A DNA stretch of 64,000 bases from Paraflavitalea soli (GTDB taxonomy: Bacteria > Bacteroidota > Bacteroidia > Chitinophagales > Chitinophagaceae), in contig NZ_CP032157.1 of assembly GCF_003555545.1 (NCBI RefSeq), forward strand, positions 4,406,546-4,470,545. The letters run 5' to 3'. A model generated the notes under the pieces. It ran no database searches and had not been told where the DNA came from. It saw nothing but the letters and a program-made list of their open reading frames with translations. The position numbers and the translations under genes were made by a program. Below, one piece after another: positions 2,488-48,093 of this stretch. The number at the start of each line of letters is the position of its first letter. The first letter of the stretch is position 1.

Positions 2488-3858
2488 GTGCACCTGTTCT
2501 TCTATACTATTTTTTGCCGCCTCTACCTGTTGGGAATACGCGTTGTAGCGCTCTGGAACCCTAAAGCCAAGTTGTGGTTGAATGGAAGAAAGGGATTGCT
2601 GGGAAGAATACAGTCGGCAGTCGGTCCCGCCAAGGGGCGGGAGCAGTCGGCAATATTGGCTCCAAACCCGGGTCCAACAGTCTCTCCTAACAGCGGCGAA
2701 GCAAAAGACTCACCACTCACCACTCACCACTCACCACTCGTGTGGATGCATTGCGCTTCGCTGGGCGAATTTGAGCAGGGCCGGCCTGTACTGGAAGCCT
2801 TGCGGGACAAATACCCAGGTATTAAAATACTCTTAACCTTCTTTTCTCCTTCCGGTTATGAAGTGCGTAAAAACTACGGAGGGGCCGATTTTGTGTTTTA
2901 CCTGCCCATGGATTCAAAAGCCAATGCCCGTCGATTCCTGGATATCGTGCAGCCCGACCTGGTGATCTGGATAAAATATGAGTATTGGTATCATTACCTC
3001 ACCGCCTTAAAAAAACGGAAGATCCCCACGCTGCTGGTATCTGGTATCTTCAGGCCCGATCAACCTTTTTTCAAGTGGTACGGCCGCCTGCATCAATATA
3101 TATTAGAGAGCTTTACGCACCTGTTTGTGCAAACACCAGCTTCCAAAGACCTGCTGGCCGGCATTGGCTTTACCAACAATGTGACCGTCAATGGAGATAC
3201 CCGCTTCGACCGGGTAGCTGCTATCGTAGAGAAGTTTGTACCGCTGCCCGCCATCGAAGCATTTTGCGGAAAGTATCCTACTGTAGTTGCCGGCAGTACC
3301 TGGCCGGAAGACGAAGAAGAACTGGACCATTATGCCAATACCCATCCGGATATGCGGTTTATTATAGCGCCACATGAGATCCATGAAAGTCACCTCAAGG
3401 AGATCGAAAAGCTATTTAAGCACACCATCCGATATTCTGTATTGCAAAAGCGTGTTCCGGGCACAGTAAGCCGGGAGCAACAGCATACCAATACGCTCAT
3501 CATCGACAATATCGGCATGCTGTCGAGGTTGTATAAATATGCCACCATTACTTATATCGGCGGTGGATTTGGAGATGATGGGGTACACAATGTGCTGGAG
3601 GCGGCGGTATACCGCAAACCCGTCGTATTTGGGCCGGTATATGAGAAGTACATAGAAGCGGCGGAACTGGTAGATGAAGGGGGCGCTTTCCCTATTAAAA
3701 CGGCCCTCGAGCTGGAAAAAGTGCTGAATGACTTACTGGCTGATGAGTCGGCTTACAAAAAAGTCTGCCAACAGGCAGGCCAATATGTTCATAGTAAAAC
3801 GGGAGCAACAGATGCCGTGTTGCAGTTTATTCAGGAAAACCGTCTTTTAACGAGTTGA
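2488..3858 (+). CDS. waaA: 3-deoxy-D-manno-octulosonic acid (Kdo) transferase with in-frame repeat insert
   Basis: Transfers Kdo from CMP-Kdo onto lipid A at the inner face of the cytoplasmic membrane, the first step of LPS core assembly. Visible features: an N-terminal hydrophobic anchor (residues 1-22), HCASLGEFEQGRP near residue 90, and the C-terminal GT-B half with YIGGGFGDDGVHNVLEAA and KPVVFGP. The start is GTG at 2488; no ATG lies in a sensible place and the N-terminus (LFFYTIF...LWNPKAKLWLNG) fits the family from there. Odd feature: residues about 42-84, just before the conserved HCASLGEFEQ block, are a low-complexity stretch (2611-2740) containing copies of the 7-mers CAGTCGG and ACTCACC. 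It matches an intergenic repeat family seen elsewhere in this window, and homologues normally have only a short linker here. The 3' end overlaps the convergent gene by 28 bp. Confidence 0.9.
   Translation: MHLFFYTIFCRLYLLGIRVVALWNPKAKLWLNGRKGLLGRIQSAVGPAKGREQSAILAPNPGPTVSPNSGEAKDSPLTTHHSPLVWMHCASLGEFEQGRPVLEALRDKYPGIKILLTFFSPSGYEVRKNYGGADFVFYLPMDSKANARRFLDIVQPDLVIWIKYEYWYHYLTALKKRKIPTLLVSGIFRPDQPFFKWYGRLHQYILESFTHLFVQTPASKDLLAGIGFTNNVTVNGDTRFDRVAAIVEKFVPLPAIEAFCGKYPTVVAGSTWPEDEEELDHYANTHPDMRFIIAPHEIHESHLKEIEKLFKHTIRYSVLQKRVPGTVSREQQHTNTLIIDNIGMLSRLYKYATITYIGGGFGDDGVHNVLEAAVYRKPVVFGPVYEKYIEAAELVDEGGAFPIKTALELEKVLNDLLADESAYKKVCQQAGQYVHSKTGATDAVLQFIQENRLLTS
2611..2740. repeat. Heptad word-repeat element inside waaA
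   Basis: CAGTCGG occurs at 2611, 2618 and 2644, flanking a GC hairpin (CCCGCC / GGCGGG, 2626-2641). ACTCACC occurs four times in tandem from 2708 to 2735, followed by ACTC. A 13-mer GGCGAAGCAAAAG (2695-2707) directly precedes the ACTCACC array and is found identically at 25002-25014 in another element. The element is translated in frame as a Ser/Pro/Thr/His-rich linker. Confidence 0.8.
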
Positions 3859-4541
3859 TAGAAATGGCGGGTGATCTCTTTTGAATCGTCCCATCCTAGT
3901 TTGATCTTCAGTTCCCTTTCTATCCAGTATTGTGCTTCGGGATAGATGCGGAAGCCATTGATGGTTTTTACACTGCGTTCATACATCACCTCATCGCCGC
4001 GGAACAGGTCATTGATAAACACAAAACGATCATTGATGCCAATGGCCTTTTTGAGGTCCCGAACGGGTGAATCGTTGAGGCGGTGTCCCACTTCTACCCT
4101 TTCTTCTTTTAACTTATCATTAAGAGATGCCTGGGCCGTTGCCATGGTCTCATTAAGCTCTTTGGCTGAAGTTTGGTGCGCCAGGGTGGGTATTTCTACC
4201 AGTGGGTTGAATTGTAATCCTGCTTGTACAGCAGCTGCAGGCGCATGGGTGCCATTGCCATTCCTGGCGGGCTTTTCTTCCTGTTTCTCAACAGGTAACA
4301 CGATCTCCTCAGCTACTTTTGCTTCCAATACCGGTGTTTCCACTACCACCGTATTGTACACTGTACGTGCAGCGGGCATTACCACTGCTACTTTGGAGGT
4401 GCCCTGTGCTGCCCGTGTGGCAGCGGACAACCGCATTAGCTCCGCCTCAATGAGTTGAGTGGTCACTAATAGTTGTTTATTATCGGCATTTTGTTCGAAT
4501 TGTTCGTTTAATTTGCCGATCAATTGTTGTAATCGCTCCAT
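3831..4541 (-). CDS. Conserved protein of unknown function
   Basis: 236 residues, no enzyme motif recognised. Residues 1-45 look like an amphipathic helix or coiled coil; residues 50-125 are a low-complexity Ala/Val/Glu/Pro linker; residues 150-236 form a compact conserved-looking domain (LKKAIGINDRFVFINDLF ... AQYWIERELKIKLGWDD). I recall this C-terminal type from unannotated Bacteroidota proteins but cannot name a function. The gene is convergent with waaA, and the two coding regions overlap by 28 bp at their 3' ends. It is divergent from tdk, with a 75-bp shared promoter region. Confidence 0.75.
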   Translation of the reverse strand: MERLQQLIGKLNEQFEQNADNKQLLVTTQLIEAELMRLSAATRAAQGTSKVAVVMPAARTVYNTVVVETPVLEAKVAEEIVLPVEKQEEKPARNGNGTHAPAAAVQAGLQFNPLVEIPTLAHQTSAKELNETMATAQASLNDKLKEERVEVGHRLNDSPVRDLKKAIGINDRFVFINDLFRGDEVMYERSVKTINGFRIYPEAQYWIERELKIKLGWDDSKEITRHFYQLVKRRFS

Positions 4542-4616
4542 AATAGATTAAGTGGGTACTTTATGGGTTAGTTATTGACTATAAAGTTAACAATTATTAT
4601 ACCTATTTCCGTTAAC

Positions 4617-5186
4617 ATGTTCATAGAACCAAATATATCAGGCGAACGACGTGGCTTTATTGAAGTGATCTGCGGCTCTATGTTTTCAGGCAAAACAGAA
4701 GAACTGATACGCCGGTTGAAGCGTGCGCGCATCGCCAACCTGAAAGTGGAAATATTTAAGCCACGGGTAGATGTACGCTACCATGAAACGGATATCGTAT
4801 CGCACGATGAGAAAGCTATTCAATCAACTCCCATAGATAACTCCCAGATCATTTTATTGCTGGCCGGAGAGGTAGATGTAGTAGGTATTGATGAAGCCCA
4901 GTTCTTCGATGATCAGTTGCCCGATGTATGTGATCAGCTGGCATTAAAAGGCATCCGCGTTATTGTGGCCGGCCTGGATATGGACTATATGGGTAAACCC
5001 TTTGGGCAGATGCCCAACCTGCTGGCCAAGGCAGATTTCATTACCAAACTGCATGCGATCTGCGTGCGCTGTGGCAATATTGCCAACTACTCTTACCGCA
5101 AATCGCCGGATGCATCGCAGGTATTGCTGGGCGAAAAGGATCTGTACGAACCGCGGTGCAGAAAGTGTTATTACGAGAAGCTTTAA
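4617..5186 (+). CDS. tdk: Thymidine kinase (type II)
   Basis: Phosphorylates thymidine to dTMP in the salvage pathway. It has the P-loop [10 protein letters not shown] (residues 21-30), the Walker B-like DEAQFF, the lasso/substrate region and the structural zinc cysteines CVRCG and CRKCYYEK at the C-terminus. About 189 aa, normal for the family. The ATG at 4617 (MFIEPN) is preferred over an in-frame upstream codon at 4575, which would add a non-conserved hydrophobic lead. It stands alone, upstream of the ccm genes with a 50-bp gap. Confidence 0.93.
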
Positions 5187-5215
5187 AAAGTAAATGGAAT
5201 ACCCCCTGAACTAAT

Positions 5216-5223
5216 TATTTTCG
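5216..5223 (+). promoter_or_regulatory. Candidate -7 box for ccmB
   Basis: TATTTTCG lies 13 nt before the ccmB ATG and matches the Bacteroidota -7 form TAnnTTyG. The -33 partner is unclear. Confidence 0.35.
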
Positions 5224-5236
5224 CGCATCTCTACTT

Positions 5237-16606: not shown

Positions 16607-18394
16607 ATGGCCAACCCCCTTTTACAGATCAATAACCTGCAGGTAGATTTCGTAACAGAAATTGGAACTACCACAGCCATCAATAATATTTCCCTGGAAG
16701 TACAGCGTGGTGAAATTGTAGCCATCGTTGGCGAATCAGGGTCGGGCAAATCCGTTACCTCCCTGTCCATACTTCAATTGTTACCTACGCCACCCGCCCG
16801 GTATACACAGGGTAATATTCTTTTCTCGCCCGATGGCAAAACAGCGGTTAACCTGCTCACCCAAACTCCCCGGCAGCTGCGGGCCATACGGGGCAACCAG
16901 ATAGCCATGATCTTCCAGGAGCCCATGAGCTCCCTCAACCCGGTATACACCTGCGGCGACCAGGTAATGGAAGCCATTCGTCTGCACCGGCAATTATCCA
17001 AAGAGAAAGCTACCCAAAAAACGATTGAGCTGTTTGAGAAAGTAAAGCTTCCCAACCCTGCTCAGCTGTTTCACCGGTACCCTCATCAGTTGAGTGGCGG
17101 CCAAAAGCAGCGGGTAATGATCGCCATGGCCATGAGCTGTGAGCCCGATCTGCTGATCTGTGATGAACCTACTACCGCCCTGGATGTAACGGTACAGAAA
17201 ACTATTTTGCAGCTGATCAAATCGCTGCAGCAAACGGAACAGATGGGGGTTATTTTTATTACGCACGACCTGAGTGTAGTAGCCGAAATAGCCGATAAAG
17301 CGGTAGTGATGTACAAAGGAAATATTGTGGAGCAGGGTACCATTGCCCGGCTTTTCAGTAACCCTCAGCATCCCTATACCAAAGGATTGCTGGCCTGCCG
17401 GCCGATATTGCATCCGAAGGGAGAAAGATTGCCGGTGGTAAGTGATTTCCTGGAAGGGAGGAGAGAGAATATAGAATACAGAATTCAGCATACAGAAGAA
17501 TACAGCGCGGCAGGATTCGGTAACCTGAAGCCTTCGAATGAGGACCAGTCTTCGGATACCCGACTCAAGACTCCAGGCTCTGAACTCAAAACTCCCAACT
17601 CCCCACTGCTGACTGTGGATCATCTCAGCGTATGGTTCCCTTCGAAGAAAACGTTCCTGGGCAAGCCGCTGGAATATACCAAAGCGGTAGACGATGTAAG
17701 TTTTGAGGTATACAAAGGAGAAACGCTGGGACTGGTAGGCGAATCGGGCTGCGGTAAAACCACCCTGGGCCGAACGGTGCTGCGACTTATAGAACCCACC
17801 AAAGGCAATATATTTTACAACGGTGCAGACCTGACGGCTCAAAAGAGAGATGCCTTAAAAAGCCTTCGCAAAGATATACAGATCGTGTTCCAGGACCCCT
17901 ACTCTTCCCTGAATCCACGGCTCACCATTGGCGAAGCCATTGCGGAACCATTGAAAGTGCACGGGCTGCTGCCCACCGCTAAACAACGTAAGGATAAAGT
18001 GGTGGAACTACTGGAAAAGGTAAACCTGCAAGCGGCACATTTTGACCGGTACCCGCATGAATTTTCCGGCGGTCAGCGCCAGCGCATCGTAATCGCCAGG
18101 ACCCTCGCACTCAACCCCTCTTTTGTTGTATGTGATGAATCGGTATCAGCCCTGGATGTAAGTGTGCAGGCCCAGGTACTGAACCTGCTGAATGATCTCA
18201 AAAAGGAATTTGGTTTTACGATCATCTTTATCTCCCACGATCTTTCTGTGGTACGCTATATCAGCGACCGTATTATGGTGATGAACAAAGGAAGGATCGA
18301 AGAGATCGGCGATGCAGAGCAGGTGTATTTTCATCCTAAACAGGCTTATACACAGCAATTGATCGCTTCTATCCCGAAGGGAATACTCAGTTGA
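16607..18394 (+). CDS. Fused dipeptide/oligopeptide-type ABC transporter ATPase (DppD-DppF fusion)
   Basis: 595 residues holding two complete nucleotide-binding domains. First: Walker A GESGSGKS (near 42), signature LSGGQKQRV, Walker [13 protein letters not shown], and the peptide-transporter tail [12 protein letters not shown]. Second: GESGCGKTT (near 380), FSGGQRQRI and [18 protein letters not shown]; the latter has DES where most ABC proteins have DEP. Energises import of peptides or nickel, but no permease or binding-protein gene is nearby. The linker (residues about 285-338) is unusual: its DNA is made of 7-nt words of the intergenic repeat family. Confidence 0.9.
17467..17618. repeat. 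Heptad word-repeat element in the ABC ATPase linker
   Basis: Units of GAATACA type start at 17467, 17474, 17481, 17488 and 17498; eight consecutive ACTCNNN-type units run 17563-17618. The first array uses the same words as the intergenic element at 39337-39364. The whole element is translated in frame between the two ATPase domains. Confidence 0.75.
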
Positions 18395-22319: not shown

Positions 22320-22644
22320 ACAAAGGGAGGGTTTATGAGGTATCGGGAAATTAGGCCCTGTGAAAGATGCTAAAAACGTCTGAAATCATAAAATATTTGT
22401 TGTTTTTGTTTTCCTAAAACGCTATTCCTCCGGGAATTGGACATATAAGCCGTGGGGTTTTACTTTATTTTTTCATATGGCTCTTTTTTGCTACCTTCGC
22501 CCGCTTGAAATTTATGCCTGACATGTTATCAAACCTGGTGCCGTAAGACCTCGTTTGTCCCGGAGCAGTTTCCCCGACGTACCCGCTCTTACTACCGCTT
22601 GGTATCATGTGGCTACCTACCGTAATAAAATTGTTATAATTCAC
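22320..22644. other. Intergenic region upstream of queA
   Basis: About 325 bp between divergent genes. A TACCTTCG box near 22490 could be the -7 element of a queA promoter, implying a leader of roughly 140 nt. I looked for a preQ1 riboswitch (expected upstream of queuosine genes in some phyla) and did not find its pseudoknot pattern. No repeat or RNA gene seen. Confidence 0.4.
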
Positions 22645-23694
22645 ATGAAACTGTCACAGTTCAGGTTTGATTTACCGCTTAATCTTATTGCCCAACACCC
22701 TACGAAGAAACGTGAAGATGCCCGCATGATGGTGGTGCATCGCAAAACCGGCCAGATTGAAAACAAGCATTTCCGCGACATCATGGATTATTTTGATGAC
22801 AAGGATGTATTTGTAGTCAATAACACCAAAGTATTTCCTGCCCGTATGTATGGCCGCAAAGAGAAAACAGGTGCTAAAATTGAAGTATTCCTTTTAAGAG
22901 AATTGAATAAGCCCAACCGTCTTTGGGACGTGATCGTTGATCCCGCCCGTAAGATCCGTGTAGGTAATAAACTCTACTTCGGCGAGAACGATGAGCTGGT
23001 AGCGGAAGTGATCGACAATACTACTTCCCGTGGCCGCACCATCCGTTTTCTGTGGGATGGCACCGACGATGAATTCCGCCAGATGCTGGAATTCCTGGGT
23101 GAAACGCCCCTGCCAAAATACATAAAACGTAAACCGGAAGCGGAAGACAAAGAACGTTTCCAAACGGTTTATGCCAAGCATGAAGGTGCCGTAGCGGCTC
23201 CTACTGCCGGCCTGCACTTCAGCATTGAACTGATCAAAAGGTTGGAAATTAAGGGTATCCGCTTTGCAGAAGTAACCCTGCATACGGGTCTCGGTACTTT
23301 CCGCCCCATTGAAGTGGAAGACCTCAGCAAACATAAAATGGACGCTGAGTACTACCGTATAGAAGATACTGCCTGTAAGATCGTGAATAAGGCTATTGAA
23401 GGCAATCACCGCATTTGCTCAGTGGGTACTACCACCATGCGTGCGCTGGAATCTTCTTACACTGCGGAAAAGCTGTTGAAGCCTTCTGAAGGTTGGACGA
23501 ATATCTTCATCCACCCTCCTTACCAGTTCAACATTGCCGATGCACTGGTGACCAACCTGCACCTGCCAAAGACGAGCCTGTTGATCATGACCTGTGCTTT
23601 TGCCGGTTATGACCTGGCGATGGAAGCCTACAAGAAGGCCATCAAGGACAAATACCGCTTCTTCAGCTATGGCGATGCGATGATCGTGATCTAA
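22645..23694 (+). CDS. queA: tRNA preQ1(34) S-adenosylmethionine ribosyltransferase-isomerase
   Basis: Transfers and isomerises the ribosyl moiety of SAM onto 7-aminomethyl-7-deazaguanine in tRNA, the penultimate step of queuosine synthesis. Motifs: [17 protein letters not shown] at the N-terminus, [28 protein letters not shown] (near residue 185), [17 protein letters not shown] and [10 protein letters not shown] at the C-terminus. 349 aa, full length. The frame is open to 22555, but the ATG at 22645 (MKLSQFRF) is conserved. It stands alone in this window; no other queuosine gene is adjacent. Confidence 0.95.
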
Positions 23695-23702
23695 TTCAGT
23701 TT

Positions 23703-23737
23703 CGGGTCTGGAGTTCCGGGTTTCCCGTTCTTCCGGC
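23703..23737. repeat. Short heptad word array downstream of queA
   Basis: Four consecutive 7-nt units starting at 23703, 23710, 23717 and 23724, with GGGTYT / GTTC words. It is a single arm without an obvious inverted partner and lies between queA and its terminator. Confidence 0.45.
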
Positions 23738-23832: not shown

Positions 23833-24969
23833 ATGAGCCATTCCAACAAAATACGCATACTGGAAACCATCCGTCAGGGACAGATCGGTGGAGGAGAAAG
23901 TCACTTATTGAGCCTGGTAGAGAACCTGGACAAAGACCGCTACGAACCGGTAGTACTTTCCTTTACCGATGGTCCCATGGTAGACAGGCTGAAGGAAATG
24001 GGCATACAAACGGAAGTGATCTATACGGAGAAACCATTCGATATCAGCAAATGGAAGCGTGTAAAAGCCTTTATAGAGGCCAATAATATCCAGTTGGTAC
24101 ATGCACATGGTACCCGGGCTAATTCGAATGTATTCTGGGCTACCAAGAAACTGAAACTGCCCCTGGTGTATACGATCCATGGCTGGTCGTTCCATGATGA
24201 TCAGAATCCATTGATCAAGAAGGTACGGGTAATGGGTGAACAATTGCTCACGAATAAATCGGACATCAATATCTCGGTTTCCGCCTCCAACCAGCAAAGT
24301 GGAAAGAAAACCTTCAAAGGGTTTGAATCGGTGGTGGTGAACAACGGGATTAACCAGCATAAATTCGATCCGGCCCGTTCTTTCAAGGACGTGCGGAGTG
24401 AATTGAATATACCCAAGGATGTAACACTGGTGCTCTTTGTGGCCCGCTTCATTCACCAGAAGCAGCCGCTGAAACTGATCAATGCTTTTGCCAATGCGGT
24501 GAAGCAATTGCCTTCCCTGCGTTTGTTGATGGTGGGTGATGGTGATCAGAAAGCGGAAGCGCTGGAGATGGTTAAGCAACTGGGCATTGCAGACCAGGTG
24601 ATCTTTGCCCCCTTCCGCCAGGATGTACCGGATGTACTGGCGGCGGCTGATGTATTTGTGCTGCCTTCCTTATGGGAAGGATTGCCTATCGGCTTGCTGG
24701 AAGCCATGGCCATGGGCAAGGCTATTATCGGCACGCAGGTGGATGGCACCTCAGAAGTAATACAACACAATGCGAATGGTCTATTACTCCCCGTAGAGAC
24801 CTTAGACAATACGCTGCCACAAACCATTATACAATTAACCGATCCCGCGTTGCGCGAGCGGCTCGGTAAAGCTGCCAGGGCCACTATCAGTTCTACCTAT
24901 AGCGCGGCTATGATGACGCGGCAGATCGAGGGGTTGTATGAAGGGTTGCTGAAGAAATACAGGCGCTAG
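23833..24969 (+). CDS. GT4-family glycosyltransferase
   Basis: 378 residues, GT-B fold. The N-half starts RILETIRQGQIGGGESHLLSL, a donor/acceptor loop typical of GT4; the C-half has FVARFIHQKQP, LLMVGDGDQK and the E-x7-E motif region LPSLWEGLPIGLLEAMAMGKAIIGT (near residues 275-300). Probably retains anomeric configuration and acts on cell-surface glycan or lipid; the sugar is unknown. ATG at 23833 is chosen over one 16 codons upstream; a TACTTTCG box (23817-23824) ends 8 nt before it. The stop TAG is also the first three bases of the heptad repeat element that follows. Confidence 0.9.
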   Translation: MSHSNKIRILETIRQGQIGGGESHLLSLVENLDKDRYEPVVLSFTDGPMVDRLKEMGIQTEVIYTEKPFDISKWKRVKAFIEANNIQLVHAHGTRANSNVFWATKKLKLPLVYTIHGWSFHDDQNPLIKKVRVMGEQLLTNKSDINISVSASNQQSGKKTFKGFESVVVNNGINQHKFDPARSFKDVRSELNIPKDVTLVLFVARFIHQKQPLKLINAFANAVKQLPSLRLLMVGDGDQKAEALEMVKQLGIADQVIFAPFRQDVPDVLAAADVFVLPSLWEGLPIGLLEAMAMGKAIIGTQVDGTSEVIQHNANGLLLPVETLDNTLPQTIIQLTDPALRERLGKAARATISSTYSAAMMTRQIEGLYEGLLKKYRR

Positions 24970-25046
24970 CTGTTAGGTATTAGCTGTTAGCCTTAGCTCT
25001 TGGCGAAGCAAAAGTGCTAACACCTAAAAGCTAAAGGCTAATAGCT
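24967..25046. repeat. Inverted heptad word-repeat element
   Basis: Left arm: 7-nt units of TAGCTGT / TAGGTAT type starting 24967, 24974, 24981 and 24988. Right arm: units ending in CTA at 25013, 25020, 25027 and 25034 plus a partial unit, the reverse complement of the left words. The centre carries GGCGAAGCAAAAG (25002-25014), identical to the core in waaA. Located between convergent genes. Confidence 0.85.
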
Positions 25047-25514: not shown

Positions 25515-25646
25515 AAACGCTGGTTTATTGTATGACCTGAAGGTATACCCAATAGTTACATGGGTCAATGGCCCCTACTGCTGTTTTAACTTAACATTCT
25601 GTGAAAGAAAAGTAAATGGGAACGTTCCTATTTGAACAGTAGCTTA

Positions 25647-25693
25647 AGAGGTGACACCTTTCGTTTGCGATGCCGGGGAAAGGTGTCACCTCT
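25647..25693. repeat. Perfect 16-bp palindromic repeat
   Basis: AGAGGTGACACCTTTC (25647-25662) and its exact reverse complement (25678-25693), separated by 15 nt. Each arm contains the near-palindrome GGTGNCACC. It lies between the divergent lipoprotein and esterase genes. It has no T-tract on either side, so it is more like a REP-type palindrome than a terminator. Confidence 0.8.
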
Positions 25694-25745
25694 GATTGGA
25701 TTCCTGATCCGTTTTGCATTATATTTGACTATCAACTCAAACCAT

Positions 25746-26678
25746 ATGAAACGTTCGCTGGCCCTTTTATCCTTTATTTGTTTTGCGCAAGCTACTATGG
25801 CACAGATCACGATACCCTTATATCCCGACAGTATCCCCAATTCAAAGCCAACGACCGATAAGGAAAGCTCGGTGGTGGGCGCTGATGGCAAGCTCCGCAT
25901 CAGTTACGTAACCAGGCCCACGCTCACGATCTACCAGGCACCCAAAGAAAAAGCCACCGGTACAGCGGTGATCGTTTGCCCCGGCGGAGGTTATTCCATC
26001 CTGGCGGCCAGTCATGAAGGATCGGATGTAGCCCGGAAGTTCAATGAAATGGGTGTTACAGCCATTGTACTGAAATATCGCCTGCCGAATGATACTACCA
26101 TGATCAACAAAGAGATCGGGCCGCTACAGGACGCGCAGCAGGCGCTGCTGGTGGTTCGGGCAAGAGCCGAAGAATGGGGTATCAAGAAGGACCAGGTGGG
26201 TATTATGGGCTTTTCCGCCGGTGGTCACCTTGTGTCAACAACAGGCACGCACTTTCAATACAATTATGTCACTGGCCAGCCTGAGAAAAAGGTGTCTAAG
26301 AAATCACCCTTAAGACCCAATTTCCTGATCCTGATCTATCCGGTGATCAGCTTTTCCGACAGCCTGGGACACAAGGGTTCCCGCACCAAGTTGCTAGGCG
26401 ACAATCCATCGGCCGGGAAGATCAGGGAATACTCCAATGAACTGCAGGTCACCAAACTCACCCCACCCAGTTTCCTGGTACATGCCAAGGACGATAAAAC
26501 GGTCCTGTACCAGAATAGCCAGGAATTTTATGATGCCCTCCAAAAGAATAAGGTGCCCGCAGAAATATACTTTTATGAAAAAGGCGGCCATGGTTTTGGC
26601 ATGATCAACAAGACCAGTGAAGTGAAGTGGATGGACCTGCTGCAGGAATGGATGAAGAGCAATAAGTGGGTCAGGTAG
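25746..26678 (+). CDS. Secreted esterase of the BD-FAE / acetyl-xylan esterase-like family
   Basis: 310 residues with signal peptide (MKRSLALLSFICFAQATMA). Alpha/beta hydrolase: oxyanion-hole motif CPGGGYSILA (near residue 80), nucleophile GFSAGGH (near residue 155), acid in VHAKDDKTV and histidine in GGHGFGM. This pattern fits the BD-FAE/xylan acetyl-esterase group that removes acetyl or feruloyl groups from plant polysaccharide. The open frame runs to 25632 but would translate through the palindromic repeat; ATG at 25746 is the clear start. Confidence 0.85.
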   Translation: MKRSLALLSFICFAQATMAQITIPLYPDSIPNSKPTTDKESSVVGADGKLRISYVTRPTLTIYQAPKEKATGTAVIVCPGGGYSILAASHEGSDVARKFNEMGVTAIVLKYRLPNDTTMINKEIGPLQDAQQALLVVRARAEEWGIKKDQVGIMGFSAGGHLVSTTGTHFQYNYVTGQPEKKVSKKSPLRPNFLILIYPVISFSDSLGHKGSRTKLLGDNPSAGKIREYSNELQVTKLTPPSFLVHAKDDKTVLYQNSQEFYDALQKNKVPAEIYFYEKGGHGFGMINKTSEVKWMDLLQEWMKSNKWVR

Positions 26679-26705
26679 TTCCGCGTTTAGTGTTGCGTGT
26701 TTCGG
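26678..26705. repeat. Short heptad word array after the esterase gene
   Basis: Four consecutive 7-nt units starting with GTT at 26678, 26685, 26692 and 26699, beginning at the last base of the stop codon. Single arm without inverted partner. Confidence 0.5.
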
Positions 26706-26747
26706 ATTGCTGCCGTAATGCAGGCTTCCTGACTAAATAAGATCTTG

Positions 26748-29587: not shown

Positions 29588-29678
29588 GGTTTACTCTCCT
29601 GTTCCGCTACTGGCGGAATGTTTAAGTGGGAAAATAATTTTTGCAAGGCAGGCGCAAAGATAAGGGAAGATGCTATTT

Positions 29679-29830
29679 CGGATCCCGGATTTAGGATTTA
29701 AGATCCTTTAGACGCAATATCCTGCAAGGACCTTAGCCTATTGTACCTTTTAGTCTACCTGTAAGGTTGAAAATATTAATAACTGTCCGGTCATAAGCAA
29801 TTCGAAATCCTAAATACTACATTCGGAATC
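29679..29830. repeat. Inverted heptad word-repeat element with widely spaced arms
   Basis: Left arm: units of CGGATTT type at 29679, 29686, 29693 and 29700. Right arm: units of CGAAATC / CTAAATA type at 29803, 29810, 29817 and 29824, reverse complement words of the left arm. AAGCAA (29795-29800) immediately precedes the right arm. The last unit overlaps the stop codon of the following minus-strand gene. Confidence 0.75.
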
Positions 29831-30908
29831 AAAGTCGTATCCCAAATTTCTCGCCCAGCAATATAAGGTCTTCCGACACAGAATTGAGCAAGGGGATGCC
29901 TGCTTTCAGGCGGTTGGCTTCCATTTCACGCTCCGGATCACCCGGGATCAGTACCTGTTCTTCTCCTGCTACGGGTGTGGCGCTGCGGAAACGGCCAATC
30001 CATTTGTCCATATGGAATTTAAAATCAGCTGCGGGGCGGAAAGCATCCACGCGCATAGCGCCAAAAAAGTGTCCAATACCTTTGCCCGGCATATCGGTAG
30101 GCATGGGTACATAAGCGGGGAAAGGCGGTACCCAGGGGCCATAATTGGCGCCACTCAATACGGCGGAGAAGATATCGACCACAGCCCCGAGGGCATATCC
30201 TTTATGGCTGCCATGCTCCCGGTCGCCGCCCAGGGGTAGTAAGGCGCCCCCGGATTTCAGTTCATGGGGATTGGTAGAAGGATTGCCGGCTTTGTCCTGT
30301 ACCCAGCCGGTAGGGGTTTCCTTGCTCTTGCGCTGCAATATCTCCAATTTGCCGTTGGCAGCGGTGGTGGTGGCCAGGTCGGCTACAAAAGCTGGTTCCT
30401 CGCCTGCCGGAATGGCTACGCAGATGGGATTGGTACCCAGGAGTCTTTCTACTGAAAAGGTGGGCGCTACCAGGGCGCTGGCATTGGTCATAGCTATGCC
30501 GATCATATCATGCTCCAGTGCCATCATGGCATGGTAGCCCGCGATACCGAAATGGTTGCTGTTTTGAACACTCACCCAACCGGTACCCACCTGTTTGGCC
30601 TTATCGATGGCCACCTGCATGGCAAAAGGCGCTACTACGAGGCCCAGGCCGGCATCGCCATCGACGACCGCCGTGGAAGGGGTTTCATGAATGATGCGCA
30701 CATTAGGCTTTGCATTAGCACGGTTGGCTTCCCACAAGCGCACATAGCCGCTAAGGCGGGCCACACCATGAGAATCGACCCCACGCAGATCGGCAGACAA
30801 CAATACTTTGGTGGCCATAGCGGCATCAGATTCAGTACATCCGATCTGCTGAAACACAGCTTTGGTAAAATTGAATAACTGTTGGTAAGGATATATTCTT
30901 TCTGACAT
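29829..30908 (-). CDS. Ldh family NAD(P)-dependent oxidoreductase (malate/L-lactate/ureidoglycolate type)
   Basis: 359 residues of the non-Rossmann YlbC/ComC fold. Motifs: DLRGVDSHGVARL with the catalytic histidine (near residue 48), VQNSNHFGIAGYH (near residue 118), the nucleotide-binding TNPICVAIPA and GGDREHGSHKGYALG. The substrate (malate, sulfolactate, ureidoglycolate or other 2-hydroxyacid) cannot be distinguished. Full length; 56 bp upstream lies the S41 peptidase end, same strand. Confidence 0.87.
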   Translation of the reverse strand: MSERIYPYQQLFNFTKAVFQQIGCTESDAAMATKVLLSADLRGVDSHGVARLSGYVRLWEANRANAKPNVRIIHETPSTAVVDGDAGLGLVVAPFAMQVAIDKAKQVGTGWVSVQNSNHFGIAGYHAMMALEHDMIGIAMTNASALVAPTFSVERLLGTNPICVAIPAGEEPAFVADLATTTAANGKLEILQRKSKETPTGWVQDKAGNPSTNPHELKSGGALLPLGGDREHGSHKGYALGAVVDIFSAVLSGANYGPWVPPFPAYVPMPTDMPGKGIGHFFGAMRVDAFRPAADFKFHMDKWIGRFRSATPVAGEEQVLIPGDPEREMEANRLKAGIPLLNSVSEDLILLGEKFGIRL

Positions 30909-35420: not shown

Positions 35421-35493
35421 AGCTGCGAGCTTCGAGCTAATAGCTACGAGCTAAAACCAAAGGCTCGTAGCTCGCTGCTCACAGCTCGAAGCT
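35421..35493. repeat. Inverted heptad word-repeat element (AGCTNNN)
   Basis: Left arm: five consecutive AGCTNNN units starting 35421, 35428, 35435, 35442 and 35449. Centre: 10 nt containing CCAAAGG. Right arm: NNNAGCT-type units at 35466, 35473, 35480 and 35487. CGTAGCT and CGAAGCT occur in both arms as reverse complements. Lies between the dicarboxylate symporter end and the dedA start; the cleanest member of the family. Confidence 0.9.
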
Positions 35494-35502
35494 GGTATTA
35501 TA

Positions 35503-36765
35503 TTACGCGGCCGCAGCCACATCGTCTATCTGTTCCGGCCCCAATTCTCCTTCCCACTTACTAACGACGCTGGTGGCCAGTGCATTGCCCACCACGTTGG
35601 TCATTGTACGGAACATATCGCAAAAATGGTCAATTGGTAAGATCAGGGCAACTCCTTCGGGCGGAATGCCAAACATGGAACAGGTGGCCAATACTACCAC
35701 CAGGGAGGCCCTTGGCACGCCCGCTATTCCTTTACTGGTCACCATCAGCACCAATAACATGGTAATCTGTGTACCCAGATCGAGGGGCACTTTGTAAGCC
35801 TGGGCAATGGCCAGACTGGCAAAGGTCATGTACATCATGCTTCCATCCAGGTTAAAGGAATAACCCAGGGGAAGTATGAAAGAAACGATCTTGTTCTTAC
35901 ATCCAAAGCGTTCCAACTCTTCAGTAAGCTTGGGGAATACGGCTTCGCTACTGGTGGTACCGAAGGCAATGAGCAGCGGACTGCTGATACGCCTGATGAG
36001 GTGAAAAGTGCGCTTCCCTAATATCAGGTATCCCACACTTAACAATATTATCCAGAGAATGAGGATGCCCAACAAGAAGAAGAGGAAGTATACAATATAG
36101 AATTTAAAGATCTCCAGTCCCTTTACTGCCACTACAGCGGCCAGGGCTCCAAAAACACCCAGGGGGGCTACATTCATTACATAGCCTACCATTTTAAGGA
36201 TCACATGGGCTACAATGTCGAGGGCCTTGATGAGCGGTTTCCCATAATCGCCAAGGGCGGTCATGGCCACGCCAAAGAATATGCTAAATACTACCAATTG
36301 CAATATTTCATTGGTAGCCATTGCCTCAATGACACTGCGGGGGACAATATGTTCTACGAACTTTTCTATAGAAAACTCCTGATTTTTGGTCATCAGGTCT
36401 TTTACTCCTTCCGTATCAGCATGGGAAAGGTCAATAAAATGCCCGGGCTGGAAGGTATTTACCAATACCAGTCCTACCAGCAGGGAAACGAGGGAGGCAG
36501 AGATGAACCATAACAGTGCTTTGCCTCCTACCCGGCCAACGGCCTTCATATCACCCAATTTAGCAATACCTACTACCAGGGTTGAGAATACCAAGGGTGC
36601 TATGATCATCTGTACCAACCGGATAAATAGCTTTCCGAGCAGGTTGATATTTTTAGAAAAGCTCTTAATAAAGGTAGGGGAACTGAAATCGTGCACAATG
36701 TATCCGACGAGGATGCCGAGCGCCATTGCGATCAGAATATAAAGCGTGAGCCTGTTTTTCTTCAT
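35503..36765 (-). CDS. Dicarboxylate/amino acid:cation symporter (DAACS family)
   Basis: 420 residues with about eight helices and two hairpin loops. Signatures: the serine-rich HP1 region FGTTSSEAVFPKL (near residue 280), PLGYSFNLDGSMMYMTFASLAIAQ (NxDG, near residue 305) and the HP2 region SKGIAGVPRASLVVV (near residue 350). Takes up glutamate, aspartate or C4-dicarboxylates driven by Na+ or H+. The frame is open to 36831 but the ATG at 36765 (MKKNRLTLYILI) begins the first helix. The last residues (PEQIDDVAAAA) are low-complexity. Confidence 0.9.
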   Translation of the reverse strand: MKKNRLTLYILIAMALGILVGYIVHDFSSPTFIKSFSKNINLLGKLFIRLVQMIIAPLVFSTLVVGIAKLGDMKAVGRVGGKALLWFISASLVSLLVGLVLVNTFQPGHFIDLSHADTEGVKDLMTKNQEFSIEKFVEHIVPRSVIEAMATNEILQLVVFSIFFGVAMTALGDYGKPLIKALDIVAHVILKMVGYVMNVAPLGVFGALAAVVAVKGLEIFKFYIVYFLFFLLGILILWIILLSVGYLILGKRTFHLIRRISSPLLIAFGTTSSEAVFPKLTEELERFGCKNKIVSFILPLGYSFNLDGSMMYMTFASLAIAQAYKVPLDLGTQITMLLVLMVTSKGIAGVPRASLVVVLATCSMFGIPPEGVALILPIDHFCDMFRTMTNVVGNALATSVVSKWEGELGPEQIDDVAAAA

Positions 36766-38608: not shown

Positions 38609-39331
38609 ATGGGTAGGATATTTGAAGTTCGTAAGTCTACCATGTTTGCCCGCTGGGACAAAATGGCCAAACAGTTTAGCCGCATTGGAAAGGAAATCGC
38701 CATTGCCGTGAAATCCGGTGGTCCCGACCCGCATACCAACCCTGCCCTGCGCCGGTGTATGCAGAATGCCAAGAGCGTGAACATGCCCAAGGACCGCGTA
38801 GAAGCGGCCATCAAACGGGCGCAGGGCAAGGAAATGGAGAACTATGAGGAGATCCTGTACGAAGGATATGGTCCGCACGGGGTAGCCATCCTGGTAGAAA
38901 CAGCCACGGATAACCACGTACGTACGGTTGCCAATGTGAAGTCGATCTTCAACAAGGGCGGCGGTACACTGGGCAATAGCAACAGTGTAAGTTTTCAGTT
39001 TAAGAAAATGGGGGTTTTCAAATTAAAGCCCGAAGGCCTTAACCTGGATGACCTGGAACTGGAACTGATCGACTTCGGCCTGGAAGAGCTGGGTGAAGGT
39101 ACGGGCGAGAATGGCGAAACAGTATTGGTAGTACGCGTGGGCTTTACCGATTTCGGCAATATGCAAAAAGCGTTGGAAGAAAAAGGCATCACCCCCATCA
39201 GTGCCGAATTGGAATGGATACCCGGTACACCGGTAGAGTTGGGAGAAGAACAAGCCCAGGACGTATTGAAACTGGTAGATAAGCTGGAGCAGGATGAGGA
39301 TGTACAGAAAGTGTTCCATAACCTGGCATAG
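38609..39331 (+). CDS. YebC/PmpR family protein (YebC_II-type N-terminus)
   Basis: 240 residues. The N-terminus [21 protein letters not shown] replaces the canonical GHSKWANI of YebC_I, placing it in the second YebC subfamily. Conserved [19 protein letters not shown] (near residue 43), [14 protein letters not shown] (near residue 90) and [18 protein letters not shown] are present. The family binds DNA as a transcriptional regulator and members have been linked to relief of ribosome stalling. It stands alone. Confidence 0.9.
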
Positions 39332-39336
39332 GAAGA

Positions 39337-39464
39337 GAATCCAGCATACAGAATTTAGAATACAGAAGAAGGCCGTAAGGATTTGCTACTGCAAACTGCT
39401 TACGGCCTTCGTTATTTAAGCAAAAGTGTATTCTTCTGAATTCTGTATTCTAAATTCTATATTC
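39337..39464. repeat. Inverted heptad word-repeat element with central hairpin
   Basis: Left arm: units of GAATACA type starting 39337, 39344, 39351 and 39358. Centre: hairpin GGCCGTAAG / CTTACGGCC (39371-39379, 39399-39407). Right arm: units of TGTATTC type starting 39427, 39437, 39444, 39451 and 39458. AAGCAAAAG (39418-39426) immediately precedes the right arm. Probably also the transcription stop for the convergent neighbours. Confidence 0.85.
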
Positions 39465-39468
39465 TCCC

Positions 39469-41820
39469 CTATTCACTCCTCAATGCCTTCACCGGATTGG
39501 CCACTGCTGCTTTGATCGTTTGGGTGGCAATAGTAAGGCCGGCTATAATAAAGGAGGCTGCTATTGCCAGCAGGAATACGCCCACGCCAATGCTGATATG
39601 ATAAGCAAAGTTCTGCAGCCAGTTGTCCATCATGTAATAAGCAATGGGGGCTGCAATACAAAACGCGATCACAATAAGCCAGATAAACTCTTTAGAGAAC
39701 AGGTACACAATGCTGGTCATGGAAGCGCCGAGCACTTTGCGGATACCCACTTCTTTAGTACGCTGGATGGCTGCAAAAGCGATGAGACCATATAGTCCCA
39801 GACATCCGATGAGGATGGCAATACCGGCAAATAACCTGAAAGCGGTATAGAGTTTTTGTTCCTGCCTGTAGAAGTTGGCAATATGGTCGTCCAGAAATTC
39901 GTATTCGAATAATTCTTCGGGAAACATAGTGGACCACATTTTATCGATGCGGGCCATGGTCTTCACCATATTGCCGGACTGCAATTTTACACTCACGTCG
40001 TACAAGCGGTCGGCATTGTACCTTAAGATAACCGGGCGTCTCAACTTGTGTTTGCTTTCACTTTGAAAATCCTGAACTACTCCTTTAATGGTCAATGTAC
40101 GGCCCACTCCTTTAAAGCGAGCGCCAATGGCCTCCTGTGGGTTTTGTATACCTAGTTTATGGATCAGCGTTTCATTGACCAGCACCTGATTCAGGGTGTC
40201 CACTCCTTGCAAGGGTACAAGGCCCGCGCCTGCCAACAGCTTAATTCCAAACATAGTAGTATAATGTTCATCAATGAACTTGAGTTCCGTAACATCATCT
40301 TTATCAAGGCCGCGATCGGGTGCTGAAAAAGGCGCGAAATTATTGCTATAGCCTGGCGCGCCGGAAGAAAAACTCATTTCTTTTACGCCGGGATCAGCGG
40401 CCAGTTGCTGCCGGATGATCTCCCGTTTGCTGCGGTCGGGCAGTGGAAAGGAAACCACAGCCTCTTTGTTGAAGCCAAGGTCTTGGTTGCGGAAAAAGTC
40501 CATTTGCCAGGCTACTACCAAGGTACCGATGATGAGCAGCTGTGAGATCACAAATTGCACCACCACCAGGCTTTTGCGAAGAGAAAAACCACGCACTACC
40601 GGTGCCCTCATATTCTTAAATGCGGATATGGGATTGAAAGCAGATTGTACAAAAGCCGGGTATACGCCCGCCAGCAATATCAGGAGTAAGGTAAGGCCTC
40701 CAATAAACAGCATCACTACGGGATCGGCAAGCGCTGCTGGTCCGATATTTATTTCCAGCCAGTCAGTTGCTTTGGATAAGAACAATGAGGCGGCCAGGGT
40801 GCCCAGCACTACGGCCACCAATACAAGGACCGAGGTTTCACCCAAAAACTGGCGTATCAGCTGGCGACGATCTGCGCCTAGTACCTTGCGCACGCCTACT
40901 TCTTTGGCCCGTTTGATAGATTGGGCAGTAGATAGGTTGATAAAATTAATGGCAGCTATGATGATGATGAGCAGGCCAATTGCTCCCAACGCTTTGTAAG
41001 AATTTTTTGAAACGGTAGGACTGGCACCACCGCCCAGGTAGCGGGTATCATAGTGGATATCCAACATGGGTTGCAGCGGCAATCTTGCATCTTTGGCAAT
41101 ATCATTCCCCCAATGGCTTTTAATAAAAGAAGGTATCCTCTTTCTTAACTGATCCACATCATAATGTTCAGGCACCACGATATAGGTAGTGCCGCCCATG
41201 ATGGCATAGAAGTTCATACCGGCCGGTTCCAATTCCTTGGCCAGTGTCTCGAAAGAAACAAGAAACAAAAAAGGAATATGTGTATTGGCAGGCTGGTCTT
41301 TGATGATGCCGGTCACCTTCAGGTCGTATGCATTGTCGAGCCGGATCACCTGTCCCATGGCATTCTCCTTACCAAAGTATTTCTTTGCCATGCTTTCTGT
41401 GAGCACCACGGTATTGGGAGCTGTCAAAGCAGTACGGGCATTTCCTGCCATCCACTGAAAATCGAATATGCTGGTAAACTGCTGATCGGCAAAAAAGTAG
41501 CCCTTTTCATTGTACCGGTGCTCGCCAATTTTTACCATGCCACCATAGCGAAACCAGGATTGGGATATCTCCAATTCGGGAAAGTCGGAACGCATGGCGG
41601 GCGCAATGGCCATAGATACACTCGGATTAAAATCAATGGCATTGAGGGTTACCCGGTAAGTACGATCAGCTTTTTTGTGGTAATTGTCGTAACTGAGCTC
41701 ATTGCGCACTACCAGGAAAATGACCAGGCAGGTAGCAACGCCTAAACCAAGACCAAAAACATTAAGAAAGGTATAACTGAAATTCCGGCGAATATTTCTG
41801 AGGGCTGTAGTGATAAACAT
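39469..41820 (-). CDS. FtsX-like (MacB-type) ABC transporter permease
   Basis: 783 residues with the Bacteroidota double-FtsX architecture: N-terminal helix (FLNVFGLGLGVATCLVIFLVV), a MacB-type periplasmic domain, the first FtsX core (residues about 285-430, RAKEVGVRKVLGADRRQLIRQFLGE), a second periplasmic domain, and a second core (residues about 670-783, RTKEVGIRKVLGASMTSIVYL). Such proteins work with a LolD-like ATPase in mechanotransmission or efflux, but no ATPase gene is adjacent. Single gene, convergent with yebC. Confidence 0.9.
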   Translation of the reverse strand: MFITTALRNIRRNFSYTFLNVFGLGLGVATCLVIFLVVRNELSYDNYHKKADRTYRVTLNAIDFNPSVSMAIAPAMRSDFPELEISQSWFRYGGMVKIGEHRYNEKGYFFADQQFTSIFDFQWMAGNARTALTAPNTVVLTESMAKKYFGKENAMGQVIRLDNAYDLKVTGIIKDQPANTHIPFLFLVSFETLAKELEPAGMNFYAIMGGTTYIVVPEHYDVDQLRKRIPSFIKSHWGNDIAKDARLPLQPMLDIHYDTRYLGGGASPTVSKNSYKALGAIGLLIIIIAAINFINLSTAQSIKRAKEVGVRKVLGADRRQLIRQFLGETSVLVLVAVVLGTLAASLFLSKATDWLEINIGPAALADPVVMLFIGGLTLLLILLAGVYPAFVQSAFNPISAFKNMRAPVVRGFSLRKSLVVVQFVISQLLIIGTLVVAWQMDFFRNQDLGFNKEAVVSFPLPDRSKREIIRQQLAADPGVKEMSFSSGAPGYSNNFAPFSAPDRGLDKDDVTELKFIDEHYTTMFGIKLLAGAGLVPLQGVDTLNQVLVNETLIHKLGIQNPQEAIGARFKGVGRTLTIKGVVQDFQSESKHKLRRPVILRYNADRLYDVSVKLQSGNMVKTMARIDKMWSTMFPEELFEYEFLDDHIANFYRQEQKLYTAFRLFAGIAILIGCLGLYGLIAFAAIQRTKEVGIRKVLGASMTSIVYLFSKEFIWLIVIAFCIAAPIAYYMMDNWLQNFAYHISIGVGVFLLAIAASFIIAGLTIATQTIKAAVANPVKALRSE

Positions 41821-43925: not shown

Positions 43926-43941
43926 GAGAAAAAAGGCACAT

Positions 43942-46448: not shown

Positions 46449-46477
46449 AAGGGTTCACAAACCAAATCCTGAGCAGT

Positions 46478-46921: not shown

Positions 46922-46935
46922 AAAAACAATTGAAT

Positions 46936-47382: not shown

Positions 47383-47405
47383 TTCTCTATAATTCATTGA
47401 TATGT

Positions 47406-47438
47406 ATCCCCATAGCATCAGCTGTGGGGATTTTTTTT
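47406..47438 (+). terminator. Rho-independent terminator after the DUF1573 pair
   Basis: Stem of 11 bp (ATCCCCATAGC / GCTGTGGGGAT) with loop ATCA and eight T. Confidence 0.85.
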
Positions 47439-47490
47439 GCTTATAAAGCATTGATATCCTGTAGATTTGCCGACCATTAATATTCTACGC

Positions 47491-47937
47491 ATGCCTTCAG
47501 CTTCTTCGAAAAAGCCGCTTATTACCCCGGAATACCGGGTTTTCTTCCCCATTAAAGTGGGCAAAAGCCAGATCGATGGCCAGGGGGCCTATGCGCTGCA
47601 GCGCATTCCTGCCCGCCGGAAGATCGGCGACCTGGGCGGGGTGATCATTACGATCCGGGAAGCCCGGCGTATTACGGCCCGGACCAAGCGGGTGGCGATG
47701 GTAGAGTTTGACAACGGGGAGGCACTGAATGCTTCTGTGAACAGCAATGAGCTGCGTTATATCAATCACTCCTGCGATCCCAATACGTATATGCGCCTTA
47801 CGCACCGCCGGGTGGAATTCTATGCTTTACGACCTATAAAAGTAAATGAGGAGCTGACCTGCAATTATGGAGAAACGCACCATGATGGAAAGTTACCCTG
47901 CCAGTGCGGCGCCCGGAATTGTAAAGGGTTTATTTGA
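47491..47937 (+). CDS. SET domain protein with post-SET motif
   Basis: 148 residues. SET signatures: GQGAYALQRIPARRKIGDLGG (SET-N), NHSCDPNTYM (near residue 95, the pseudoknot), EELTCNYGE (near residue 120) and the post-SET zinc motif CQCGARNCKGF at the C-terminus. The fold is that of lysine methyltransferases; the substrate is unknown in bacteria. ATG at 47491 is used; a TAGATTTG box at 47462-47469 fits as -7 element. Confidence 0.88.
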   Translation: MPSASSKKPLITPEYRVFFPIKVGKSQIDGQGAYALQRIPARRKIGDLGGVIITIREARRITARTKRVAMVEFDNGEALNASVNSNELRYINHSCDPNTYMRLTHRRVEFYALRPIKVNEELTCNYGETHHDGKLPCQCGARNCKGFI

Positions 47938-47941
47938 TTAC

Positions 47942-48093
47942 GAATGCAGAATTTAGTATTTAGAATTGCTCCGCATTTTTTTCAAGCCCTCTAACTTAAA
48001 AGTTGCTGAATTTTCAAGGTTGATCAGCCTGTATTCATTACGTTGAACAGATCGCAGCAGCCATCCAAAATTCTACATCCTAAATTCGAAATC
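47942..48093. repeat. Heptad word-repeat arms flanking the SET-aminotransferase gap
   Basis: Left array: units of GAATTTA type at 47942, 47949, 47956 and 47963, starting just after the SET stop. Right array: units of CTAAATT / CGAAATC type at 48066, 48073, 48080 and 48087, ending 16 nt before the next ATG. The two arrays share reverse-complement words and are 96 nt apart. Confidence 0.7.

Follow-up and report, generated by a model that had tools for sequence, protein, structure and literature searches.

A 64,000-nucleotide stretch of the Paraflavitalea soli chromosome (G000:C1:4406546-4470545, hereafter the window; the host genome, G000, is a single contig of 8.44 Mb) carries short tandem arrays of degenerate heptamers, several of which begin at a stop codon and face a second array of the same word in inverted orientation. 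An initial annotation of the window had described nine such loci as one dispersed family. The observation holds, and the arrays prove to be genome-wide, made of recurrent families and more varied than that annotation held. Each array may well be an arm or half of a small intergenic element, dispersed and non-autonomous, of which there would be many families; such elements would be selfish DNA resembling repetitive extragenic palindromes (REP) or miniature inverted-repeat transposable elements (MITEs); we rate this explanation at about even. It is supported by the recurrence of words, the convergent layout, the adjacency to stop codons, gain and loss between congeners, and two distinct arms in five inverted pairs (dyads). 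An element would consist of one array, or of two arrays of the same word converging on a core, with the G-rich strand first and the C-rich strand last. An arm would be a short run of degenerate 7-mers (8- or 11-mers elsewhere) with about 4-5 fixed and 2-3 freer positions. Copies would spread as insertions mobilised in trans, and their units would expand and contract through slippage. Insertions would survive where they are least harmful, in the interval that separates a stop codon from the next signal, and any effects of hairpins on mRNA ends would be secondary.

Degenerate heptamer arrays in the window

Array strength was measured as a lag-7 segment score and compared with that of 200 shuffled versions of the window in which dinucleotides were preserved exactly. 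Eleven segments score at least 15 (mean of 0.3 in the shuffles), six at least 17 (0.055) and five at least 20 (none). Ten of the 11 lie at loci of the initial annotation and one at 41253-41280. A count of merged runs that have four units and three constant columns likewise gives 17, against 2.9 in ten Markov shuffles. The arrays at 2708-2739, 17453-17499, 17562-17619, 24961-24991, 25017-25046, 29675-29704, 35421-35497, 39336-39369, 39434-39465 and 47942-47967 each have a chance expectation below 0.25 per 64 kb. Dinucleotide shuffling, the test set beforehand, thus fails to reproduce the number of period-7 runs, and inspection by eye, the run count and the shuffles agree that degenerate runs are present at or near the annotated positions (Table 1). 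Seven of the nine loci are significant alone, whereas 23703 and 26678 are at chance level by period and are carried by homology to the CGGGTNY family (model score threshold 16.8). These two loci are what chance or composition has in its favor as an explanation; shuffles and reversed-pattern controls, in which the reversed word is searched in the same genomes, exclude it for the set as a whole, and it is left with next to no probability.

Several structural claims of the annotation were borne out. Five loci (24967, 29679, 35421, 39337 and 47942) have inverted arrays of the same word, and two copies lie within genes, one encoding a KDO-transferase N-domain protein (gene 2488-3858) and the other in the linker of a double-ABC ATPase. 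At 2611, one of the nine annotated loci, only two units are found, and an array of at least four units begins at 2708. Conversely, the statement that every copy uses its own word fails: 17467 and 39337 both carry AGAATNY, 24967 and 35421 both carry xAGCTNY, and 23703, 26678, 29679 and 47942 fall in two related families (CGGGTNY and GGATTTA). Nor are the arrays invisible to an ordinary repeat search, as a simple DNA comparison using a portion of the window finds copies at about 76-97% identity.

Word families and unit lengths

Arrays from G000 (1.26 Mb) and the congener G001 (0.46 Mb) were clustered. The congener set comprises five genomes, G000-G004; one window protein has relatives in Paraflavitalea sp. 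CAU 1676 (80%), a Niastella metagenome-assembled genome (77%) and P. pollutisoli (74%). The clustering gave 31 period-7 clusters, 12 of them with at least three members. By inspection, the main heptamers on the G-rich strand are AGAATNY, GAGCTNY, TAGCTNT, CGGGTNY, (A/C)GGATNY, ARTCGNY, RATTANT, GTGAGTN and AGTGGCN; the main 8-mers are AGGCANYR, AAGTCNGA and TTGANAAT, and the 11-mers CTTATAGNGAC and GATAAGCTGTA. Four units of AGAATNN with up to three mismatches have 489 matches in the whole of G000, long arrays being counted repeatedly, against three for the reversed word. Among the matches listed, AGAATNN arrays seem to favor one strand along long stretches of the chromosome. Models of 14 word families, applied to 1.66 Mb of G000, gave 10-58 matches each with overlaps still counted. 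With the G001 sample added (2.1 Mb together), 478 matches remained after overlap resolution, of which 346 are intergenic, intergenic DNA being 12% of the sequence. What the initial annotation took for one dispersed family is therefore many families; the shared period, the inverted layout and the patchy spread in Chitinophagaceae stand, and periods 8 and 11 have to be added.

The lengths of the units are restricted. At a score threshold of 16, the 1.26 Mb of G000 contain 105 intergenic arrays of period 7 (120 overall), 37 of period 8 and 36 of period 11, plus harmonics, against 2, 1, 2, 7, 5 and 2 at periods 5, 6, 9, 10, 12 and 13 and 0 to 1.7 at each period tested in shuffled intergenic DNA. 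The congeners G002 (55 kb) and G004 (59 kb) have 0 and 1 arrays of period 7 and 3 and 1 of period 11. In Pedobacter (27 loci, 536 kb) no peak was found, with 8, 7 and 5 arrays at periods 7, 8 and 11 and 0-6 elsewhere, all small samples.

Within arrays, identity between neighboring units is clustered in certain columns (variance 0.078 against 0.044 for random placement, exceeded in 124 of 143 arrays), and several families end, on the G-rich strand and by inspection, in a free position followed by a pyrimidine. Both features would suit tandem sites for a protein that binds DNA or RNA sequence-specifically: the fixed columns would be its contacts, and the word families would mirror the specificities of paralogues. 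About ten different words in one genome, and gain and loss between congeners, make this very unlikely.

Layout, polarity and folding

Among same-family neighbors less than 200 bp apart in the 2.1 Mb, 33 pairs are convergent, one is divergent and seven are direct, whereas neighbors of different families show no orientation bias (8 convergent, 5 divergent, 12 direct). Arms are tandem words that, by inspection, are palindromic only as a pair. A weak same-word partner within 250 bp accompanies 29 arrays, against 11 in the reversed control. Polarity is possible in single arrays as well, because the motif TTTGCTTC or TTGCTTCG favors the inner flank, where it adjoins 25 of the 346 intergenic arrays, against two on the outer flank. 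Some arrays of G000 and G001 (for instance, at window-relative 404473) are fused on their inner side to a dispersed repeat, TTTGCTTCGATAGCAGATCTCTCACTCCGC..TCGAGATGACAAA.

The inner ends tell the arms apart in five of seven CGGGTNY dyads, two being dropped because both ends were typed alike, and in none of four GGATTTA dyads. In the five CGGGTNY dyads, the left and right arms are two distinct sequences. Type 2 pairs with type 1 of its own dyad as well as with that of other dyads (-39.5 and -39.7), and type 2 with type 2 reaches -48.2. Equal pairing of own and other arms points to a polar, inherited element and not to arms kept complementary by selection. Hairpin-driven co-evolution of arms was considered for 32 dyads of seven families and rejected: own arms are less complementary than swapped ones (-962 against -1093, standard deviation 34, 0 of 5000 permutations). 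As own arms pair worse than swapped arms, this deficit was first read as avoidance of perfect palindromes, which was dropped for CGGGTNY once arms had been oriented by their inner ends and own equalled other. The largest gap between own and swapped pairing (mean of -30.9 against -38.8) is in the 8-mer family AAGTCNGA, where palindromes may be avoided.

Position beside stop codons

Genes were predicted with our own script, which scores open frames by hexamers, except for genes named by standard tools; start codons are therefore approximate and a few genes are wrong. Of 1583 genes, 100 have an array that begins within 12 nt past the stop codon. The corresponding figures are 37 of 1580 for the upstream side of starts and 1 of 1583 for a control position inside genes. 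All but one of the 100 stop-adjacent arrays have period 7 or 8. Placement is close to stops even within the spacers concerned: of 255 arrays, 131 are no more than 12 nt from a stop, where uniform placement in the same spacers gives 55.5. In a smaller set, the G-rich strand of stop-nearest arrays points away from the gene in 62 cases and towards it in 34 (52 and 11 within 15 nt), and that of start-nearest arrays away in 55 and towards in 24. The adjacency may reflect targeting, or mere tolerance of insertions in the stretch between a stop and whatever signal follows. Family arrays occupy 255 of 1580 gaps between neighboring predicted genes in the 2.1 Mb, and these gaps are longer than array-free ones (medians of 160 against 55 for convergent, 158 against 61.5 for tandem and 385.5 against 225 for divergent gaps). 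The difference fits insertion, yet long gaps also offer more room. Non-autonomous dispersed elements are favored because the CGGGTNY arms are polar and the longer spacers fit insertion.

The strong adjacency to stops is also what would be expected if the arrays were selected RNA-level 3' signals, in which an array and its inverted partner would fold into a hairpin with the effect of terminating transcription, protecting mRNA 3' ends or preventing read-through between convergent genes. The folding of dyads with periods 7 and 8 is more stable than that of Markov shuffles (mean z of -1.8, n = 33, weak for many), and the dyad at 39336, which is retained around its hairpin at one site in three species (G000, G001 and G003), reaches -5.0 in G000 and -5.8 in G001, the inner hairpin contributing. 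Convergent gaps with arrays have fewer terminator-like hairpins than those without (6/46 against 23/81). In tandem gaps, however, there is no such deficit (17/135 against 45/459), the arrays lack an Rfam match, some adjoin canonical hairpins or sit inside genes, and arm co-variation is absent in CGGGTNY, the sole family that can be oriented. G002 and G004, moreover, have no clear arrays at most of the same genes. We hold selected 3' signals to be an unlikely explanation.

Comparison among congeners

Synteny among the congeners is strong, and by eye blastn blocks stop at the elements. The initial annotation would have been refuted by absence of the pattern from all nine loci in other strains; instead, arrays occur in relatives at several of these places, and elements are present or absent between congeners at orthologous spacers. 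Among 112 orthologous spacers of G000 and G001, scored at a low array threshold (13), nine have arrays in both genomes, 16 in G000 only, 15 in G001 only and 72 in neither; conservation of sites is thus weak (Fisher P = 0.055). In our own reading, the nine shared spacers comprise six with a change of word or period, one whose 8-mer is the same in both genomes and two that resemble noise let in by the low threshold. For short regions with an array in G000 only, G000 is longer in 14 of 15, by 17 to 161 bp, against an array-free background median of 10.5. Matches to the AGAAT pattern number 363, 102, 94, 1 and 0 in the five congeners, the 94 being those of G003 with 29 in its reversed control.

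At some sites the place is kept and the word is not. The ATPase linker at 17453 carries AGAATNY and GAGTCNN in G000 and a GAAGTCT dyad in G001, and is of similar length without arrays in G002 and G004. At 29675 and 47942, G000 and G003 have GGATTTA-like words and G001 has CGGGTTT; at 29675, G004 and G002 look degenerate. A spacer at window-relative -70617 has GAGCTNY in one and TAGCTNT in the other of G000 and G001. Such changes of word, which recur in a gene linker of two other genomes (G094 and G169, below), would suit an origin in place, in which replication slippage and template switching at hairpins would copy arms and rewrite words, and ectopic switching would spread words with no transposase. 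The tandem structure itself implies unit duplication, and the degenerate heptanucleotide hairpins of the Nostoc trnL intron vary in repeat copy number and have two motif classes (PMC3488679). Against this, the same small set of words is met with at many loci and, patchily, in several genera, which independent slippage would not yield; arms of one CGGGTNY dyad are no more alike than those of other dyads, polarity allowed for; and intergenic arrays seldom have periods of 5, 6, 9, 10, 12 or 13. A change of word at one site is better explained by slippage with template switching than by dispersed elements, the shared vocabulary worse, and we hold an origin in place to be a real but minority possibility.

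A further reading is that sites are rewritten: an inverted intergenic pair would keep its place, its convergent orientation and a register of 7 or 8 nt while both arms exchange their word wholesale for another from a vocabulary shared across genera, as if re-synthesised from few templates. Two-armed word cassettes of like kind stand between a constant inverted motif in G144, a more distant genome of the family. We consider this reading doubtful.

Related elements in other genera

A wider set of 195 family genomes from 101 genera, one genome per species, was searched for four units of GAGCTNY with at most one mismatch. Matches occur in 29 of 195 genomes and 25 of 101 genera, against 5 of 195 for the reversed pattern; a CGGGTTT arm occurs in 5 of 191 family genomes. 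Thirteen copies from four genomes (G028, G192, G144 and G152) align as one repeat with a central GAGCTNY pair and an outer inverted motif, GTTGYGTCRCWCWCTTGTAC. That whole elements have relatives in other genera counts for dispersed elements. The motif has 1186 and 1172 matches in G144 and none in the control; G000 has none and G001 one. It is a 20-bp motif in this 5.5-Mb genome, part of a longer module that begins with a T-run.

Within 400 kb of G144 (L261-L280), GTTGYGTCRCWCWCTTGTAC has 92 and 103 sites at up to three mismatches, the rule used for these counts, and 55 convergent pairs within 400 bp; a looser rule of up to six mismatches gave 172 and 170 matches with 90 in the reversed control. 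The shortest convergent pairs measure 64 or 71 bp, and some longer interiors contain word dyads. A stepping of pair lengths by 7 was looked for, and apart from 64 and 71 bp there is no step. The same 400 kb hold 38 matches to G000 word families against 13 to reversed words, and 21 of the 38 lie inside loose-rule pairs, which cover 7.6 of 59 kb of spacer. This hints that word arrays may be enriched inside GTTGYGTCRCWCWCTTGTAC pairs, the loose-rule control being high. Periods 7 and 8 give 19 and 11 arrays there against 1.3 and 0.7 in shuffles, and period 11 only two. Rfam gave no match in four 20-kb G144 loci with the motif.

In G094 and G169, two species of another genus, a gene that we take to be mnmH-like (86% identical over 1224 bp) has an identical in-frame GAGCTNY array, and its linker dyads consist of different words. 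In that gene, at L218/L219, the in-frame array is followed by a CCCCCTTCAGGGGGTTGGGGGG module.

Search for a driver and points against insertion

No driver gene or autonomous element could be associated with the arrays; arm-flanked genes, the Y1 transposase and reverse transcriptase were considered and set aside for want of a clear association. Family arrays occur within 3.2-3.3 kb around 5 of 12 Y1 loci, as a raw count. Same-word arrays 250-5000 bp apart are convergent in 2 cases, divergent in 2 and direct in 20 (2.1 Mb), and with no convergent bias at that range an autonomous element flanked by arms is not seen. A known RNA family was likewise rejected: Rfam left the arrays unmatched and gave tRNAs only. 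The window has one, at 49719-49792 and apart from the arrays, and seven further 20-kb loci likewise yielded nothing but tRNAs.

Several results weigh against dispersed elements. Array-rich and array-poor genomes have similar numbers of matches to the Y1 transposase (PF01797; 2-3 in each of the five congeners) and to reverse transcriptase (1-3), and no autonomous element flanked by arms was found in the 2.1 Mb of G000 and G001, which include 1.66 of the 8.44 Mb of G000. As many as 197 heptamer arrays have no same-word partner within 250 bp, and 132 of the 478 family-model matches lie within predicted genes. For arrays in G001 only, G001 is longer in just 10 of 15 cases, and by eye a target-site duplication is not readable between G000 and G001 at such divergence. 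Some arms enclose host-like sequence, by eye, and there a simple inserted unit fails as explanation. A different word at the same site is what dispersed elements explain least well, as it would need repeated insertion at tolerant sites.

Comparison with known repeats

A literature search of limited scope found no published description of such repeats for Chitinophaga or Chitinophagaceae. One comparable system is the P6b repeats of the Nostoc trnL intron, degenerate heptanucleotides pairing into a hairpin, with a varying repeat copy number and two motif classes (PMC3488679; Costa, 2002, as cited there). Heptamer arms that pair are found here as well, in the 33 dyads described above, and the likeness extends to the varying copy number and to two motif classes at the same site. 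The Nostoc repeats occupy one tRNA intron site, whereas the arrays here are spread over numerous intergenic sites beside stops, in many different words and with periods of 8 and 11 besides 7; the single tRNA of the window lies off the arrays.

TAACTGA repeats, which occur in Beggiatoaceae, cyanobacteria and some Bacteroidetes, share with the arrays an abundance in intergenic DNA and a sporadic distribution, and some Bacteroidetes regions contain other heptamers that relatives are without (MacGregor, 2015; PMC4679880). The TAACTGA repeats use one exact word, mostly direct and, in the main genome, mostly upstream of starts. The arrays here have many degenerate words and convergent pairs and more often follow stops than precede starts, and TAACTGA is in none of the 12 period-7 clusters with at least three members.

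REP sequences and bacterial interspersed mosaic elements (BIMEs) are extragenic GTAG and CGTC palindromes near coding regions, with dimers in several orientations and a REP sometimes supplying a stop codon or lying in an open reading frame (PMC3733652). The arrays resemble them as many small extragenic copies near coding ends, in forming dimers in several orientations and in at times supplying a stop codon or lying in an open reading frame. However, a REP as described there is a 20-40-bp palindrome with a tag, whereas an arm here is a run of short words without an evident cognate transposase.

MITEs are non-autonomous, with inverted ends and patchy insertions. The elements here would be alike in being non-autonomous and patchily inserted, and the paired ones, and only these, also have terminal inverted repeats; unlike MITEs, the arrays include many single arms, and no target duplication or autonomous partner was found. 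Cyanobacterial short tandemly repeated repetitive sequences are tandem heptamer repeats. Long simple sequence repeats of prokaryotes prefer heptamers (Mrazek, 2007, as summarised in PMC4679880). Both are plain runs of units without a described inverted layout, whereas the arrays here combine fixed and free columns with a recurrent layout.

Features of the window

Coordinates are collected in Table 1. The CAGTCGGCAATCGG of the 2611 locus is also found at the orthologous position in G001. The array at 23693-23731 is followed by a hairpin plus a T-run. The sequence between the arms at 29675 and 29793 is shared in part with G002 and G004, by eye. The period-11 array at 2185-2240, broadly of one kind with the others, is absent from the initial annotation; one copy of its 11-mer family has an inverted partner. 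A separate REP-like palindrome, AGAGGTGACACCTTTC..GAAAGGTGTCACCTCT, lies at 25640-25697, upstream of gene 25746-26678; among the matches listed it has about 20 short copies in G000 and few in G001.

Table 1. Arrays and associated features of the window (TRF, Tandem Repeats Finder)
Position	Strand	Feature	Context	Evidence or comparison
2185-2240	+	Period-11 degenerate array, TAGATAAGCTG x5		TRF; member of 11-mer cluster naTAAGCtGTA
2611-2624	+	Two CAGTCGG units	Left edge of element in KDO-transferase gene 2488-3858	Chance level alone, 10.4 expected
2708-2739	-	ACTCACC x4.6 exact array (GGTGAGT on - strand)	Within gene 2488-3858	TRF; lag-7 score
17453-17499	+	AGAATNY array	Linker of double-ABC ATPase gene 16607-18394	Lag-7 score
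17562-17619	-	GAGTCNN array (- strand reading), second arm, different word		Lag-7 score; G001 orthologue, GAAGTCT dyad
23693-23731	+	Degenerate CGGGTNY array	Just past stop of gene 22555-23694	Family model 26.7; no segment by period alone
24961-24991	+	TAGCTNT arm	Overlaps TAG stop of gene 23833-24969	Lag-7 score; dyad fold
25017-25046	-	TAGCTNT inverted arm	Past stop of gene 25053-25487 (-)	Lag-7 score; dyad fold
26678-26712	+	CGGGTNY-family array	Right at stop of gene 25746-26678	Family model 31.6; period score 12.4, 1.5 expected
29675-29704	+	GGATTTA arm		Lag-7 score; orthologous site: G001 CGGGTTT words, G003 GGATTTC-like
29793-29824	-	GGATTTA inverted arm	Past stop of gene 29829-30908 (-)	0.58 expected by chance alone
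35421-35455	+	GAGCTNY arm		Lag-7 score
35463-35497	-	GAGCTNY inverted arm	Past stop of gene 35503-36765 (-)	Right arm in G003 appears decayed (by eye)
39336-39369	+	AGAATNY arm	4 nt past stop of YebC-type gene 38609-39331	Lag-7 score; fold
39371-39407		Hairpin GGCCGTAAG..CTTACGGCC	Between AGAATNY arms	Same site in G000, G001, G003
39434-39465	-	AGAATNY inverted arm	Past stop of gene 39469-41820 (-)	Lag-7 score
47942-47967	+	AGAATTT/GGATTTA arm	4 nt past stop of gene 47491-47937	Lag-7 score
48063-48094	-	Inverted arm, AGAATTT/GGATTTA word	Upstream of gene 48139-49305	0.58 expected by chance; G001 site CGGGTTT

Implications

What is new here is a variant of known dispersed repeats, namely small dispersed repeats made of arrays of degenerate short words. 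With family arrays in 255 of 1580 gaps, a visible part of the spacers belongs to this repeat class. The arrays pose two puzzles: why periods 7, 8 and 11 are frequent while 5, 6, 9, 10, 12 and 13 are hardly used, and how words change at a fixed site, the word being able to differ between species at the same place. They lend themselves to testing whether short degenerate arrays arise by slippage or by transposition, and they offer candidate fast-changing markers beside stop codons as well as in-frame linker peptides inside enzymes.

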